Part shown: one piece after another, positions 4,386 through 8,795 of the stretch
Layout of the letters: each line of letters starts with the position of its first letter
Numbering within the stretch: position 1 is the stretch's first letter
Source: Flavobacteriales bacterium
Lineage (GTDB): Bacteria; Bacteroidota; Bacteroidia; Flavobacteriales_D; Crocinitomicaceae
DNA length: 35,245 nt
NCBI GenBank assembly: GCA_947463385.1
Contig: CANHSL010000016.1
Coordinates: forward strand, 1-35,245
Direction of reading: 5' to 3'
Translations under genes and position numbers: made by a program
The notes under the pieces: generated by a model
Told to the model about the DNA's origin: nothing
The model's database searches: none
Seen by the model: only the letters and a program-made list of their open reading frames with translations

Positions 4386-4952
4386 TTGAAACAAGAAGAA
4401 TTAGAGCAACATTTTAGAGCGATCATTGAAGGCTTAGGAGAAGACGTAAGCAGAGAAGGATTGCTCAAAACACCTGAACGTGTGGCCAAATCTATGCAGT
4501 TTTTAACGCATGGATACGACATAAATCCCGACACCATTATTGAGGAGGCAATTTTTCATGAAGCGTATTCTGAAATGGTCTTGGTTAAAGACATCGACGT
4601 ATATTCTTTGTGTGAGCATCACATGTTGCCCTTTTTCGGCAAAGCACACATCGCATATATACCGGACGGTAAAATTGTGGGTTTAAGTAAACTTCCACGG
4701 GTAGTAGATGCTTATGCCAGAAGGTTGCAAGTGCAAGAGCGATTGACGATTGAAATCAGAGATTGTATTCAGCGTACGCTTGCACCCAAAGGAGTGGCTG
4801 TTGTTATTGAATGTGCACACATGTGTATGCAGATGCGCGGTGTAGAAAAACAAAATTCAGCGACCACTACCAGTGCATTCACAGGAATTTTCTTGTCGAA
4901 TGAAGCAACTCGAAAAGAATTTATACATTTGATACAAAGTAAACTCCATTAA
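4386..4952 (+). CDS. folE: GTP cyclohydrolase I
   Basis: 188 residues. Converts GTP to 7,8-dihydroneopterin triphosphate, the first step to folate and biopterin-type cofactors. Family landmarks are [20 protein letters not shown] near the N-terminus, the zinc and substrate segment [42 protein letters not shown], and [11 protein letters not shown] with the third zinc ligand. The start is TTG: the next ATG in frame falls within the conserved region after TPERVAKS, which would delete essential sequence. It lies 23 bases after the PTPS gene, giving a pterin pair, and the following membrane-protein gene starts two bases after its stop. Confidence 0.95.
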
Positions 4953-4954
4953 AA

Positions 4955-5662
4955 ATGACTGATTATTCAAACAATACCTACGAAGCGAGTATTGCAAGTA
5001 ACTTTATTCGCTCGGTCTACAGCTACATGTTTATTGCGATGGCGGTATCCGGTGTTATCGCCTATGCGGTAGGAACTAATAAATTACTTTTTGACCAATT
5101 GTTTAAAACCAGTGATGGCGGAACTTCCATGTTATTTTACGTTATGTTGTTCGCTCCTTTGGTTATTTCAATGGTAATTCAATGGGGTTTTCAACGCTTA
5201 TCAATGTCGATTCTATTGGCGCTCTTTGTAGCCTACTCGGCGAGTATGGGAAGTACTTTAAGTGTGATTTTCATGGCCTACTCTACCCAAGCGATTGCCT
5301 TCACGTTCTTTGTAACAGCGGGTGCTTTTGCGGGAATGGCTGTATTGGGCTATACTACAAAAACCGATCTTACAAAATTCGGAAGTCTTCTGTATATGGT
5401 TTTAATCGGGATGATTCTCGCCAGTGTGCTCAACATATTCATCGGCAGTGGAATGATGGATTGGGTGATTACTATAGTTGGAGTTTTCGTATTTACCGGG
5501 TTGATAGCGTATCAAATGCAGCAATTAAAAATGGTGGCACAATCTCCGGAATTTTCTGCAGAAACTAGAAACAAGTTGGCCTTAATTGGTGGAATGCAAT
5601 TGTATATCCTATTTGTGAATTTATTTTTGACTTTGTTGCGCTTATTGGGCAACCGAGATTAA
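4955..5662 (+). CDS. Bax inhibitor-1 / YccA family membrane protein
   Basis: 235 residues, very hydrophobic, with about seven predicted membrane segments separated by short loops. The overall pattern (FIRSVYSYMFIAMAVSGVIA at the N-terminus, YSTQAIAFTFFVTAGAFAGM in the middle, and a charged C-terminal end after the last helix) matches the BI-1 family (UPF0005), whose members act in calcium leak or stress tolerance. The bacterial function is poorly defined. It starts two bases after the folE stop, so it is likely the last large gene of the mtaB transcript. Confidence 0.85.
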   Translation: MTDYSNNTYEASIASNFIRSVYSYMFIAMAVSGVIAYAVGTNKLLFDQLFKTSDGGTSMLFYVMLFAPLVISMVIQWGFQRLSMSILLALFVAYSASMGSTLSVIFMAYSTQAIAFTFFVTAGAFAGMAVLGYTTKTDLTKFGSLLYMVLIGMILASVLNIFIGSGMMDWVITIVGVFVFTGLIAYQMQQLKMVAQSPEFSAETRNKLALIGGMQLYILFVNLFLTLLRLLGNRD

Positions 5663-5672
5663 AATTTATGTT

Positions 5673-5680
5673 TACCTTTG
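5673..5680 (+). promoter_or_regulatory. -7 promoter element TACCTTTG for a small protein
   Basis: A perfect TAnnTTTG match in the gap after the BI-1 gene. It would start a transcript around 5685, about ten bases before the ATG of the 32-codon reading frame at 5696, and could also serve the GH3 gene. No clear -33 box. Confidence 0.45.
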
Positions 5681-5695
5681 GAAAAACTTTAACAT

Positions 5696-5794
5696 ATGTC
5701 AGGTAGATTTTTTGAAGAAAGTACAGCAGCGGTTGCAACCATTTACACCATTTTTTTACTTGTGGTTATTGGATCAATCTTGATCTTCGGTTAA
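5696..5794 (+). CDS. 32-residue single-span membrane protein (unrecognised)
   Basis: A short frame beginning ATG TCA GGT and ending TAA at 5792-5794. It encodes a short N-terminal part with two acidic residues (MSGRFFEEST), then an uninterrupted hydrophobic stretch from about residue 11 to 31 that would make one membrane helix, ending in Gly32. It fills the space between the BI-1 and GH3 genes, has its own promoter-like element 15 bases upstream, and stops 18 bases before the GH3 start. I do not recognise the family. By size it resembles small subunits such as CydX or CcoQ-type peptides, but no partner oxidase is nearby. Conservation would be the test. Confidence 0.5.
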   Translation: MSGRFFEESTAAVATIYTIFLLVVIGSILIFG

Positions 5795-5812
5795 TTATCA
5801 TTTGGGCTTGCC

Positions 5813-7324
5813 ATGTTGGTTGACGCCCTCTTCTCCACCTATATTCGTTACCGCCTAAAGCGAATCGAACTATATCGCGATTTCCCTATTGAATCACAAG
5901 TAAAGGTCCTTAAAGCACTTGTGGATGCCGGACAACACACCAACTTTGGGAAAATCCATGGCTTTGAACACATTGAATCTATTGCTGATTTCCAACAACA
6001 GGTTCCCTTACAAGATTACGCTACCCTAGAACCATTTATACAACAAGCGATTCATGGAGCTAAAGATGTACTTTGGCCAGGATACACCAAATGGTTTGCT
6101 AAAAGTTCGGGTACCACGGGAACACGGATTAAAACGCTTCCTGTAACGAAAGATAGCCTAGAACATACGCACTACGCAGGCGGAAAAGACCTCTTAGCTT
6201 GCTATCATCACAATGTACCGAACCGCAAACTTTACTCTAAAAAACATCTAATTCTGGGCGGAAGCAACAGCCTTCAAAACATTGATCAGCACGCCATTGT
6301 TGCCGACCTTTCTGCGATTATCATTGATAACTTACCCATATGGACTGAATTCCGCAGGGTTCCTGAAAAACAAATTGTATTGCACGCCGATTGGGAAGAA
6401 AAACTCATGCTCATGGCAGAAGCCAGTATGAATGAAGATGTTGCAATCATTGCAGGTGTGCCGAGCTGGATTAGCACCTTTGGTAAAATTGTATTGAAGC
6501 ATTCTGGAAAGAAAAACCTCAGTGAAGTTTGGCCAAATCTAGAACTCTACATTCACGGAGGAATGAGCCTTGCACCATACCAGAAACAACTGGACCACCT
6601 AATTGGAAGCCCTTCCATGAATTACGTTGAATCCTATAACGCATCTGAAGGATATTTTGGTTTACAAGATGACTTAAGTACCGATGGCTTGCTGTTGCTC
6701 ACGGATGCTCAAGTGTACTATGAATTCATCCCGATGGAATCCTACAAGGGGCTGGAATCAAGCGATGTATTAACCCTTGACCAAGTTTCATTAGATGTGG
6801 AATACGCATTGGTAATCTCAACGAGTGCGGGACTTTGGCGCTATATCATTGGGGACACCATCACCTTTACCTCGCTTTTACCATATCGATTCAAAGTAAC
6901 CGGAAGGACGGCGCATTACATCAATGCGTTCGGTGAAAAAGCGGTGGTGATGCACGTAGAACAAGCCATTAGTCAGTGGTCGGCCATGCAAAAAATTGAA
7001 ATCAGCAATTATACTGTGGCACCCTATTTTGATTTCGAACAAGGGATTGGTGGTCACGAATGGGCCATCGAAATCCCTGCGGAAATGGAACTTAGTACCG
7101 ATGCGGTTTTGCAATTAGATGCCTGCATGTGTAAAGTAAATTCAGATTACGATACCAAACGTGCAAATAACCTGAACATGCTTCCGCTGAAAATAACCAT
7201 GCTAGAACCTGGCACATTCTTCGCGTGGATGAAAAAAAATGGTAAATTCGGTGGACAACACAAAATTCCACGGGTAATGAATTCCCGTACCTACCTTGAT
7301 GAACTTATTCAATTTGAAAAATAA
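5813..7324 (+). CDS. GH3 family acyl-acid-amido synthetase-like protein
   Basis: 503 residues, full length for the GH3 superfamily (named from plant auxin-responsive GH3). The nucleotide-binding signature KSSGTTGTRIK is near residue 100, a second adenylate motif ESYNASEGYFGLQ lies mid-protein, and RYIIGDTITFTS with FKVTGRTAHYINAFGEK precedes the C-terminal lid. These are features of ANL-fold enzymes that adenylate a carboxylic acid and join it to an amine or amino acid. The bacterial substrate is unknown. Its stop lies 26 bases inside the next gene, suggesting coupling. Confidence 0.88.
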   Translation: MLVDALFSTYIRYRLKRIELYRDFPIESQVKVLKALVDAGQHTNFGKIHGFEHIESIADFQQQVPLQDYATLEPFIQQAIHGAKDVLWPGYTKWFAKSSGTTGTRIKTLPVTKDSLEHTHYAGGKDLLACYHHNVPNRKLYSKKHLILGGSNSLQNIDQHAIVADLSAIIIDNLPIWTEFRRVPEKQIVLHADWEEKLMLMAEASMNEDVAIIAGVPSWISTFGKIVLKHSGKKNLSEVWPNLELYIHGGMSLAPYQKQLDHLIGSPSMNYVESYNASEGYFGLQDDLSTDGLLLLTDAQVYYEFIPMESYKGLESSDVLTLDQVSLDVEYALVISTSAGLWRYIIGDTITFTSLLPYRFKVTGRTAHYINAFGEKAVVMHVEQAISQWSAMQKIEISNYTVAPYFDFEQGIGGHEWAIEIPAEMELSTDAVLQLDACMCKVNSDYDTKRANNLNMLPLKITMLEPGTFFAWMKKNGKFGGQHKIPRVMNSRTYLDELIQFEK

Positions 7325-8126
7325 GATAACATGTCTATTCGTCTTACTAGGCTCGTTCTTGGCATTCAGTCAAGAAACATTGATGCAAATTGAGGCGGAA
7401 CGTACCATTGAAATACCTGAAGGGAGCACCGCCGTATTTATTGACGGACAGCTCAATGTGTATTTTGTAAATAAAGACGAAATCAGCAAGCAGAGCAGCT
7501 ATTCAACGCCAATAAAACAGAGCTTAAAACAATGGCAAACCGTCGATGACATAGAGACCATTAGCACATTAAAAGTTTCGGTTTTCTCGAAAAGTCAACA
7601 ACAAATTTGTTTTTTGGATAACACCTTAAGTGCGAATGGGAATTGCATCAATTTAGATGACCTTGGTCTATTTAATGTAGGTGCCATAGCTACGAGCAAA
7701 CGACCTGATATGCTGTGGCTGTATGATGAATTAAATAGCAGTTTGATACTCTTTAATTTCATAAGCAAAAAGGAAATTCAAAAAGTGGATAACCTTCAAG
7801 GGATATTAGGAATATCGGGAGAAATCACATTAAATGAAAATGAATCAGGCCTATGGATTAGTTCATCCGATGGGAAAATTTGTCTAATGGATGACTTTAT
7901 GAATGTTGTTCGCTGTGTTTCGGAAACGAATCAAGCAATGATCCCATTTGCCGATGGATTTTTCTTTGTCAATGAAAACAGATTGTATTACCGTGATTTA
8001 TTCGAAGGTGTGAATGAAGTTCACAAAATATCCACAACGGAAAACATTCGTGAACTCTATATATCTGGTAATCAATTGATTGTGAGAACATCAAGCAAGC
8101 TAAATGTGTTTATAATTCAGCCTTAA
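7299..8126 (+). CDS. secreted protein of unknown function, possible beta-propeller
   Basis: 275 residues. The ATG at 7299 overlaps the end of the GH3 gene. An N-terminal Sec signal peptide is visible (basic LKNK, hydrophobic LFVLLGSFLAFS, cleavage before QET). The mature part is rich in beta-type segments and asparagine, with repeated strand-turn units such as LWISSSDGKICLMDD and LWLYDELNSSLILFN. This resembles a propeller-like fold, but no family signature is clear. A periplasmic or surface protein whose role may relate to the GH3 neighbour by position only. Confidence 0.65.
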   Translation: MNLFNLKNKITCLFVLLGSFLAFSQETLMQIEAERTIEIPEGSTAVFIDGQLNVYFVNKDEISKQSSYSTPIKQSLKQWQTVDDIETISTLKVSVFSKSQQQICFLDNTLSANGNCINLDDLGLFNVGAIATSKRPDMLWLYDELNSSLILFNFISKKEIQKVDNLQGILGISGEITLNENESGLWISSSDGKICLMDDFMNVVRCVSETNQAMIPFADGFFFVNENRLYYRDLFEGVNEVHKISTTENIRELYISGNQLIVRTSSKLNVFIIQP

Positions 8127-8180
8127 GTAACACAAAATTTCAATCCGAATTTTGTAATTTAGTGCCTTAAAATCAAATCA

Positions 8181-8795
8181 ATGCATATTGCAATCGCCGG
8201 AAATATTGGTGCTGGAAAAACCACACTAACCAACATGCTTTCAAAACATTACGGATGGGAAACTCATTTTGAAGACGTGGAACAAAACCCCTACTTGAAT
8301 GACTTTTACGAAGACATGCAACGGTGGTCGTTCAATTTACAAGTGTACTTCTTGAACAGTAGATTTTCCCAAATTCAGGACATTCATTCCCAAGAAAAAA
8401 CAGTAATCCAAGACCGGACGATATACGAAGATGCCTATATTTTTGCGCCGAATTTGCATTCTATGGGACTAATGACTACTAGAGATTTTGAAAACTATTT
8501 TTCATTATTCAATCTGATGGATTCATTTGTTAAAGCGCCTGATTTATTGATTTATCTGCGTGCTAGCATCCCTACCCTGGTGAGTCATATTCAAAAACGA
8601 GGTAGAGATTATGAAGAAAGCATCCGATTGGATTATTTGAAGCGTTTAAATGAGCGCTACGAAGCATGGATTTCTACCTATGATAAAGGCAAGTTATTGA
8701 TTATAGACATTGATAATAACAACTTCACCGAAAGTCAAGAAGACTTAGGAAGAATTATCAATGCCATTGATGGAGAAATACATGGATTATTTTAA
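8181..8795 (+). CDS. deoxynucleoside kinase (deoxyadenosine/deoxyguanosine kinase type)
   Basis: 204 residues. A salvage kinase that phosphorylates deoxynucleosides with ATP. The P-loop is GNIGAGKTT at residues 7-15. The substrate-side motif is QDRTIYEDAYIFA, corresponding to the ERS-type acid/base region, and the lid contains QKRGRDYEESI. A Trp-rich segment (MQRWSFNLQVYFL) is as in the dCK/dGK family. Substrate preference cannot be fixed from sequence. It starts 54 bases after the previous stop; an imperfect -7-like TAATTTAG lies at 8155. Confidence 0.9.
   Translation: MHIAIAGNIGAGKTTLTNMLSKHYGWETHFEDVEQNPYLNDFYEDMQRWSFNLQVYFLNSRFSQIQDIHSQEKTVIQDRTIYEDAYIFAPNLHSMGLMTTRDFENYFSLFNLMDSFVKAPDLLIYLRASIPTLVSHIQKRGRDYEESIRLDYLKRLNERYEAWISTYDKGKLLIIDIDNNNFTESQEDLGRIINAIDGEIHGLF

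Follow-up and report, generated by a model that had tools for sequence, protein, structure and literature searches.

A conserved, overlooked gene for a single-span membrane protein in Crocinitomicaceae and its possible link to the respiratory oxidase

The small gene and its neighbors

The window, which is the whole 35,245-nt stretch of DNA that we analyzed, comes from a Flavobacteriales bacterium of the family Crocinitomicaceae. It carries a BI-1 (Bax1-I) gene (4955 to 5662; Pfam PF01027) followed by a GH3-family gene (5813 to 7324; PF03321), both on the plus strand. The 150-nt gap between them holds a candidate promoter box and, on the same strand, a complete 32-codon frame, MSGRFFEESTAAVATIYTIFLLVVIGSILIFG, which occupies 5696 to 5794 with its stop included. 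It starts with an ATG at 5696, ends with a TAA at 5792 to 5794, and lies 18 nt upstream of GH3; this short gap suggests that the two genes are probably cotranscribed in this genome. The protein has two acidic residues (E7 and E8) and a single hydrophobic stretch, placed by eye in the translation at codons 11 to 31 (5726 to 5788, plus strand), which nearly reaches the C terminus. Single-sequence AlphaFold2 prediction gave one helix, spanning residues 2 to 31, with a mean pLDDT of 94.6. Farther downstream, a 276-aa protein without a Pfam match is encoded at 7296 to 8126, between GH3 and a deoxynucleoside kinase gene. In 15 of the 17 wider loci (L051 to L067), GH3 is followed by both this protein and the kinase, although identity is 23 to 47% for the former and 79 to 94% for the latter.

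The open reading frame list contains 48 frames of at least 25 aa that overlap positions 4500 to 8500. Therefore, a 32-codon frame carries no weight by itself, and it is the conservation that exceeds chance. The original prediction named lack of conservation in relatives as refuting; the peptide search instead found the frame conserved. Matches were obtained in 39 of 60 genomes, our own included, at an E value of ≤10, and 34 of these had an E value of ≤0.0013. We also assembled a set of named relatives, chosen first for the N-terminal sequence MSDNFFE and then confirmed with tblastn; 81 were found and 80 loci kept, comprising 75 different DNA sequences and 56 different proteins. Their titles are mostly Crocinitomicaceae or Flavobacteriales, and a few are unrelated (Polynucleobacter, Chitinophaga pinensis, and Sphingomonadales). 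In all 80 loci, the protein ends in WG or FG followed immediately by the stop codon, and the position of the stop is identical, although this shared ending is not fully independent of the selection, because the whole peptide was used in the tblastn confirmation. The nucleotide changes point the same way. Among 30 different sequences, all of one length (28 from the genus and 2 from family f3), synonymous change is favored, with a pooled pN/pS of 0.34, and divergence is highest at the third codon position (0.20, 0.13, and 0.43 for positions 1, 2, and 3). Thus, an unlisted single-span membrane protein, as originally predicted, is borne out by the conserved frame, the pN/pS ratio, and the single predicted helix.

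A GH3 gene lies directly downstream in 75 of the 80 named loci, at a distance of 12 to 164 nt and often of 12 to 42 nt. A DUF4290 gene lies behind the frame in three others; in the last two, no gene was recognized before the contig ended, 50 nt (L245) and 265 nt (L274) past the frame. GH3 was also directly behind the frame in 37 of the 38 loci collected first; the 38th, L068, was rejected as a spurious hit. The same adjacency is found in families f3, f11, and f13. In a further set of 29 loci fetched around the frame, which are genus representatives and not a random sample, GH3 is absent from 9, among them L096, which ends about 50 nt behind the frame. In seven of these nine, the frame is directly followed by DUF4290 and a murA-like gene; the Pfam match of the murA-like gene is to the EPSP synthase family, and we take its product to be MurA. 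The other two have an aldo/keto reductase gene in front of the frame. GH3 itself is present in 243 of the 245 genomes of the order. In 22 GH3 loci from the order's other families (L117 to L127 and L130 to L140), no recognizable frame was found upstream, and one genome, G087, has the small gene together with a weak GH3 match (1.2e-22). In family f9, GH3 domains lie within open frames of 860 to 890 aa (G215:C31:3359-4204 and G222:C50:4958-5815), which are possibly GH3 fusions.

BI-1 was recognized directly upstream in 55 of the 80 named loci and lies about 13 kb away from the frame in G029. We therefore rejected a link to BI-1. The gap between BI-1 and GH3, originally presented as the place that the gene fills, does not define its setting, since BI-1 adjoins it in only part of the relatives and GH3 is missing from the nine loci described above.

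The promoter element

The segment TACCTTTG at 5673 to 5680 on the plus strand, read directly from the sequence, matches TAHHTTTG, which PMC6847099 gives as the refined -7 consensus of the Bacteroidota main sigma factor. In the same source, the -7 box of Flavobacterium johnsoniae is numbered from T-12 to G-5. By this numbering, the predicted transcription start falls at about 5685, which would leave a leader of some 11 nt.

The sequence TAnnTTTG occurs within 80 nt upstream of the frame in 76 of 79 named relatives, versus 5.0 expected after shuffling, and in those 76 the box always ends 13 to 23 nt before the ATG. A further count of the -7 box over the same 80 nt gave 75 of 78 relatives. As controls, we used genes from the same loci with a free upstream region, taking the first ATG as the start. 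The box was found within 80 nt of 109 of 346 control genes and in the 13- to 23-nt band of 28 of 346; the latter figure was 28 of 399 before the removal of 53 controls whose upstream region overlaps the small gene or its promoter. A Fisher test of the box against the earlier 399 controls gave a P value of about 1e-60, with relatedness ignored. Neither of the two variable positions of the box is a G in any of 73 distinct segments, as TAHHTTTG demands. In the same 73 segments, no single spacing of a TTG was dominant for a -33 TTTG/TTG element, and the sequence there is a T-rich stretch. The -7 box results uphold the claim that the gene has a promoter element of its own. A regulon search of our own genome found eight sites with the extended promoter pattern, versus five for the reversed pattern, and so gave no signal; none of the eight is the box found in the window.

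The three named relatives without an exact TAnnTTTG are the three linked to DUF4290 (L265, L272, and L295). By eye, they have near-match boxes at the same place, TATCTTCG and TATCTTTA. The same three loci also show by eye a terminator-like hairpin with T's just behind the frame, so that with a variant box ahead and a hairpin behind, the gene looks as if it were transcribed alone. Among the nine GH3-less genus representatives, an exact box is present in three, namely, one of the seven beside DUF4290 and both of those behind the aldo/keto reductase gene. For the DUF4290-linked copies, this count covers the 80 nt upstream, measured in L082 from a few codons inside the frame. The other DUF4290-linked copies have near matches such as TATTTTTA, TATCTTTA, or TATCTTCG, as judged by eye. 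We had considered a promoter that is invariant whatever the neighbor, and this idea was dropped on account of the one exact box in seven. In other families of the order, the box lies within 80 nt in 10 of 12 cases and in the 13- to 23-nt band in 7 of 12.

Judged from the sequences compared, positions 5696 to 5794 almost certainly form a true gene under purifying selection, which encodes a single-span membrane protein and has a main-sigma-type promoter directly in front.

Distribution in the family, order, and class

A profile built from 23 relatives (A1) matched 185 of the 245 genomes of the order at an E value of ≤1. In the window's own family, Crocinitomicaceae, which consists mostly of aquatic bacteria, the row count of this search placed the frame in 148 of 155 genomes, the weakest at an E value of 0.0022. 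Two of the seven misses, G142 and G089, have a diverged frame upstream of GH3, and this raises the count to 150 of 155. In G012 and G032, the frame, BI-1, and a strong GH3 match are all missing, and in G028, where the frame was not found, BI-1 lies at a contig end; such absences therefore look like assembly gaps. G122 has GH3 with no small frame upstream (L357, G122:C28:263400-265400), and its small gene may have moved, been lost, or fallen into a gap. The frame was not found in G153 and G172, where the GH3 matches are weak too, nor in G006. Outside the family, the A1 search matched all six genomes of f13, the one genome of f11, and 14 of the 16 of f3, at E values of ≤3.1e-6. Family f10 gave a single match (5e-4), and in the remaining families of the order no A1 match fell below 0.04. 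Among the matches listed, G133 is the only genome with two, one of which is cut by a contig end. Among those same matches, the frame of our own genome occurs only in the window, with none near its cox genes.

A broader profile (A2), run against 396 genomes of the class at an E value of ≤0.1, matched 50, of which 18 by row count belong to the window's family. Family f17 stood out, with matches in 11 of 19 sampled genomes (a sample size inferred from handle numbers) versus 21 of the 359 remaining genomes (P of about 1e-8). One f17 hit, in G542, was rejected as spurious because it lies within a CcoG-like gene; a better frame lies elsewhere in that genome. With a profile that included f17 members, candidates appeared in 25 of 25 f17 genomes, a count that arises partly by construction and includes some weak scores (up to an E value of 0.064). 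One genome of the family, G633, has two strong matches. The f17 frames share a plan: a polar start that is in many cases rich in His, then an acidic motif, a single helix, and the end of the chain. The box occurs ahead of 10 of 25 of them, in the narrow band in 8 of 25, and many of the 15 without it have TTTTCG or TTTAGC at that place, as seen by eye. On weak profile scores, the f17 frames are probable homologs of the window gene, and relatives of the small gene thus probably occur in a second part of the class.

In 7 of the 25 f17 genomes, the frame lies directly behind genes for SCO1 and a cytochrome c (L178, L180, L181, L182, L183, L186, and L187), which were named by Pfam in one of the seven loci and by resemblance in the rest. 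Ahead of SCO1 and cytochrome c, f17 encodes a protein of about 120 to 140 aa that has an HDEVM-like motif (L199:14375-14800; L178, L180 to L183, L186, and L187); the one copy that was scanned, that of L199, had no Pfam match. In the g105 genomes of f17, the frame lies beside a presumed aminotransferase-like gene, and in other f17 genomes beside what we take to be a DUF58-like gene. GH3 was found in none of the 27 f17 loci, whose flanks are 1.5 kb or less. Given these settings away from GH3, with DUF4290 and the murA-like gene or with SCO1 and cytochrome c, the small gene does not depend on GH3.

Possible roles and known systems

A regulatory or assembly subunit role, as suggested in the original prediction, is plausible for a protein of this kind. 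The single helix with no chain beyond it, the usual presence of one strong copy per genome, the gene's own promoter, and its changing position together suggest that the protein is a small part of some core membrane complex. We tentatively favor an accessory subunit with a single helix, belonging either to the aa3-type cytochrome oxidase or to the supercomplex that this oxidase forms with alternative complex III (ACIII), and we give this reading somewhat less than even credence. SCO1 is a copper assembly factor of the oxidase, and the SCO1 and cytochrome c setting in f17 favors the aa3 oxidase. So does a rare His-rich N terminus that is common to the small protein and CoxA. In three genera of the family, the small protein begins with runs of His and Asp (MSEHHSDHH..., MSDHHDHSHDSHAHDDH..., and MSADHDHGHDDHGHGH...); this start is limited to some genera and is absent from the window's protein. 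At least five His within the first 25 residues were found in 1 of 1,559 distinct open reading frames of at least 100 aa, and that one is our own genome's CoxA. An even 400-kb sample of G095, one of the genomes whose small protein has such a start, likewise gave 1 of 354, a protein with scattered His that we take to be a tRNA-guanine transglycosylase; the two sets, the former from the loci collected, are neither random nor independent.

In the same 25 residues, CoxA has eight His in our own genome, nine in G095, five in each of G107, G265, G594, and G466, and four in G306 and G112. It thus reaches five in six of eight genomes, with part of the His belonging to a conserved later motif, and in G112 the small protein is His-rich, yet CoxA falls below this cutoff. 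Our own genome, G306, and G112 (with its His-rich small protein) have one COX1 match each, to a CoxA of about 600 aa. Oxidase subunit I of these Bacteroidota (L198:14159-16015 and L340 to L346) thus starts with a His-rich tail containing four to nine His. Against the oxidase reading, no act or cox gene is among the identified neighbors of the frame in the window's family. No such frame was seen beside SCO1 in 30 SCO1 loci drawn from the class, with a filter that recognizes seven of seven positive loci; proximity to SCO1 may have arisen just once, in f17, and would then say no more than proximity to GH3. Of the 245 genomes of the order, 244 have COX1, among them members of families in which no frame was found, and because COX1 is nearly universal, its co-occurrence with the small gene does not discriminate.

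The near-universal presence in the family, the gene's own promoter, and the varying neighbors would equally suit a single-helix subunit or assembly factor of another core inner membrane complex, such as ACIII itself, Na+-NQR, ATP synthase, Sec, or the type IX secretion motor. However, the small gene lies beside no genes for such complexes in the loci examined, whose neighbors are partly annotated, and the His-rich N terminus and the SCO1 and cytochrome c setting point to the oxidase; we hold this reading possible but rather doubtful. A membrane partner that anchors or regulates the GH3 enzyme, as an operon partner, would explain why GH3 so often follows at short distance (37 of the 38 loci collected first, 75 of the 80 named ones, and families f3, f11, and f13). 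This we consider unlikely, given the 9 of 29 representatives that lack GH3 (7 with DUF4290 and the murA-like gene), the hairpin seen by eye behind the frame in the three named DUF4290 loci, the weak GH3 match in G087, the 22 GH3 loci without a frame, and the f17 loci, where GH3 did not appear within the flanks.

Two further readings fare much worse. Size and a single hydrophobic helix recall the hydrophobic toxin of a type I toxin-antitoxin system, or a stress-induced peptide that depolarizes the membrane. Such a toxin is very improbable for a frame found in 148 of 155 family genomes; moreover, an antisense -7 box lies inside or just behind the frame in only 2 of 79 relatives versus 3.9 expected, and the gene had no plasmid match, nor positions 5300 to 6200 of the window any Rfam match. 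That the short frame lies just upstream of GH3 could also indicate a leader peptide or a translation-coupling frame controlling GH3, with an unimportant amino acid sequence. The amino-acid-level selection and the copies away from GH3 contradict this, and we give it hardly any credence.

If the small protein is an aa3 oxidase subunit, its N terminus would lie in the cytoplasm, and its helix would pack on the edge of the oxidase complex, where it may steady the complex or aid its assembly, much like the small subunit IV in the aa3 oxidases of Proteobacteria. The adjacency to GH3 would then reflect an inherited neighborhood and shared transcription, with no functional pairing. The stronger version, in which the protein is an unrecognized integral subunit of the Bacteroidota aa3 oxidase (or ACIII supercomplex), with a gene located far from those of the oxidase and present in several families of the class, we regard as rather unlikely. 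Gene finders readily overlook small single-helix proteins, some of which prove to be subunits of large complexes. This gene shows that conservation and promoter layout alone suffice to recognize such genes. As a small membrane protein that is nearly universal in the family, its product is a concrete target for searches of proteomes and respiratory supercomplexes, and if the oxidase reading is true, a missing small part of the respiratory oxidase is encoded by an overlooked gene.

Searches of Pfam and NCBIfam returned weak hits only, none convincing, and in alignment scans none was common to two members. A PDB sequence search with A1, against a library without chains of unknown residues, found nothing. 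In the literature searched on small Bacteroidota or Crocinitomicaceae proteins, GH3, and aa3 subunit IV, we recognized no paper on this protein family. Subunit IV of proteobacterial aa3 oxidases has about 50 aa or less, a polar and often His-rich N terminus, and one helix, and its chain ends just after that helix. The small protein resembles it in size, polar or His-rich start, single helix, and ending. The two differ in that there is no sequence match and no cox genes were seen next to the small gene; the subunit's model, PF07835 (COX4_pro_2), had no match in our own genome and was not among the Pfam hits of 5 singly scanned small proteins or 13 A3 members.

ActG of the Rhodothermus marinus ACIII offers a second comparison. 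According to PMC5928083, it has one predicted transmembrane helix and was detected by mass fingerprinting, without density, and some act clusters lack its gene. ActG and the small protein are alike by that description, as single-helix proteins; unlike for actG, no act cluster was seen to contain the small gene. Prli42 of Firmicutes is a conserved small tail-anchored protein, and KdpF and CydX are small subunits. With about 30 residues, one helix, wide conservation, and a gene that is easily missed, the small protein resembles these, although Prli42 belongs to a different phylum and the small protein has no convincing Pfam or NCBIfam model. It is a new family among the known small single-span membrane proteins.
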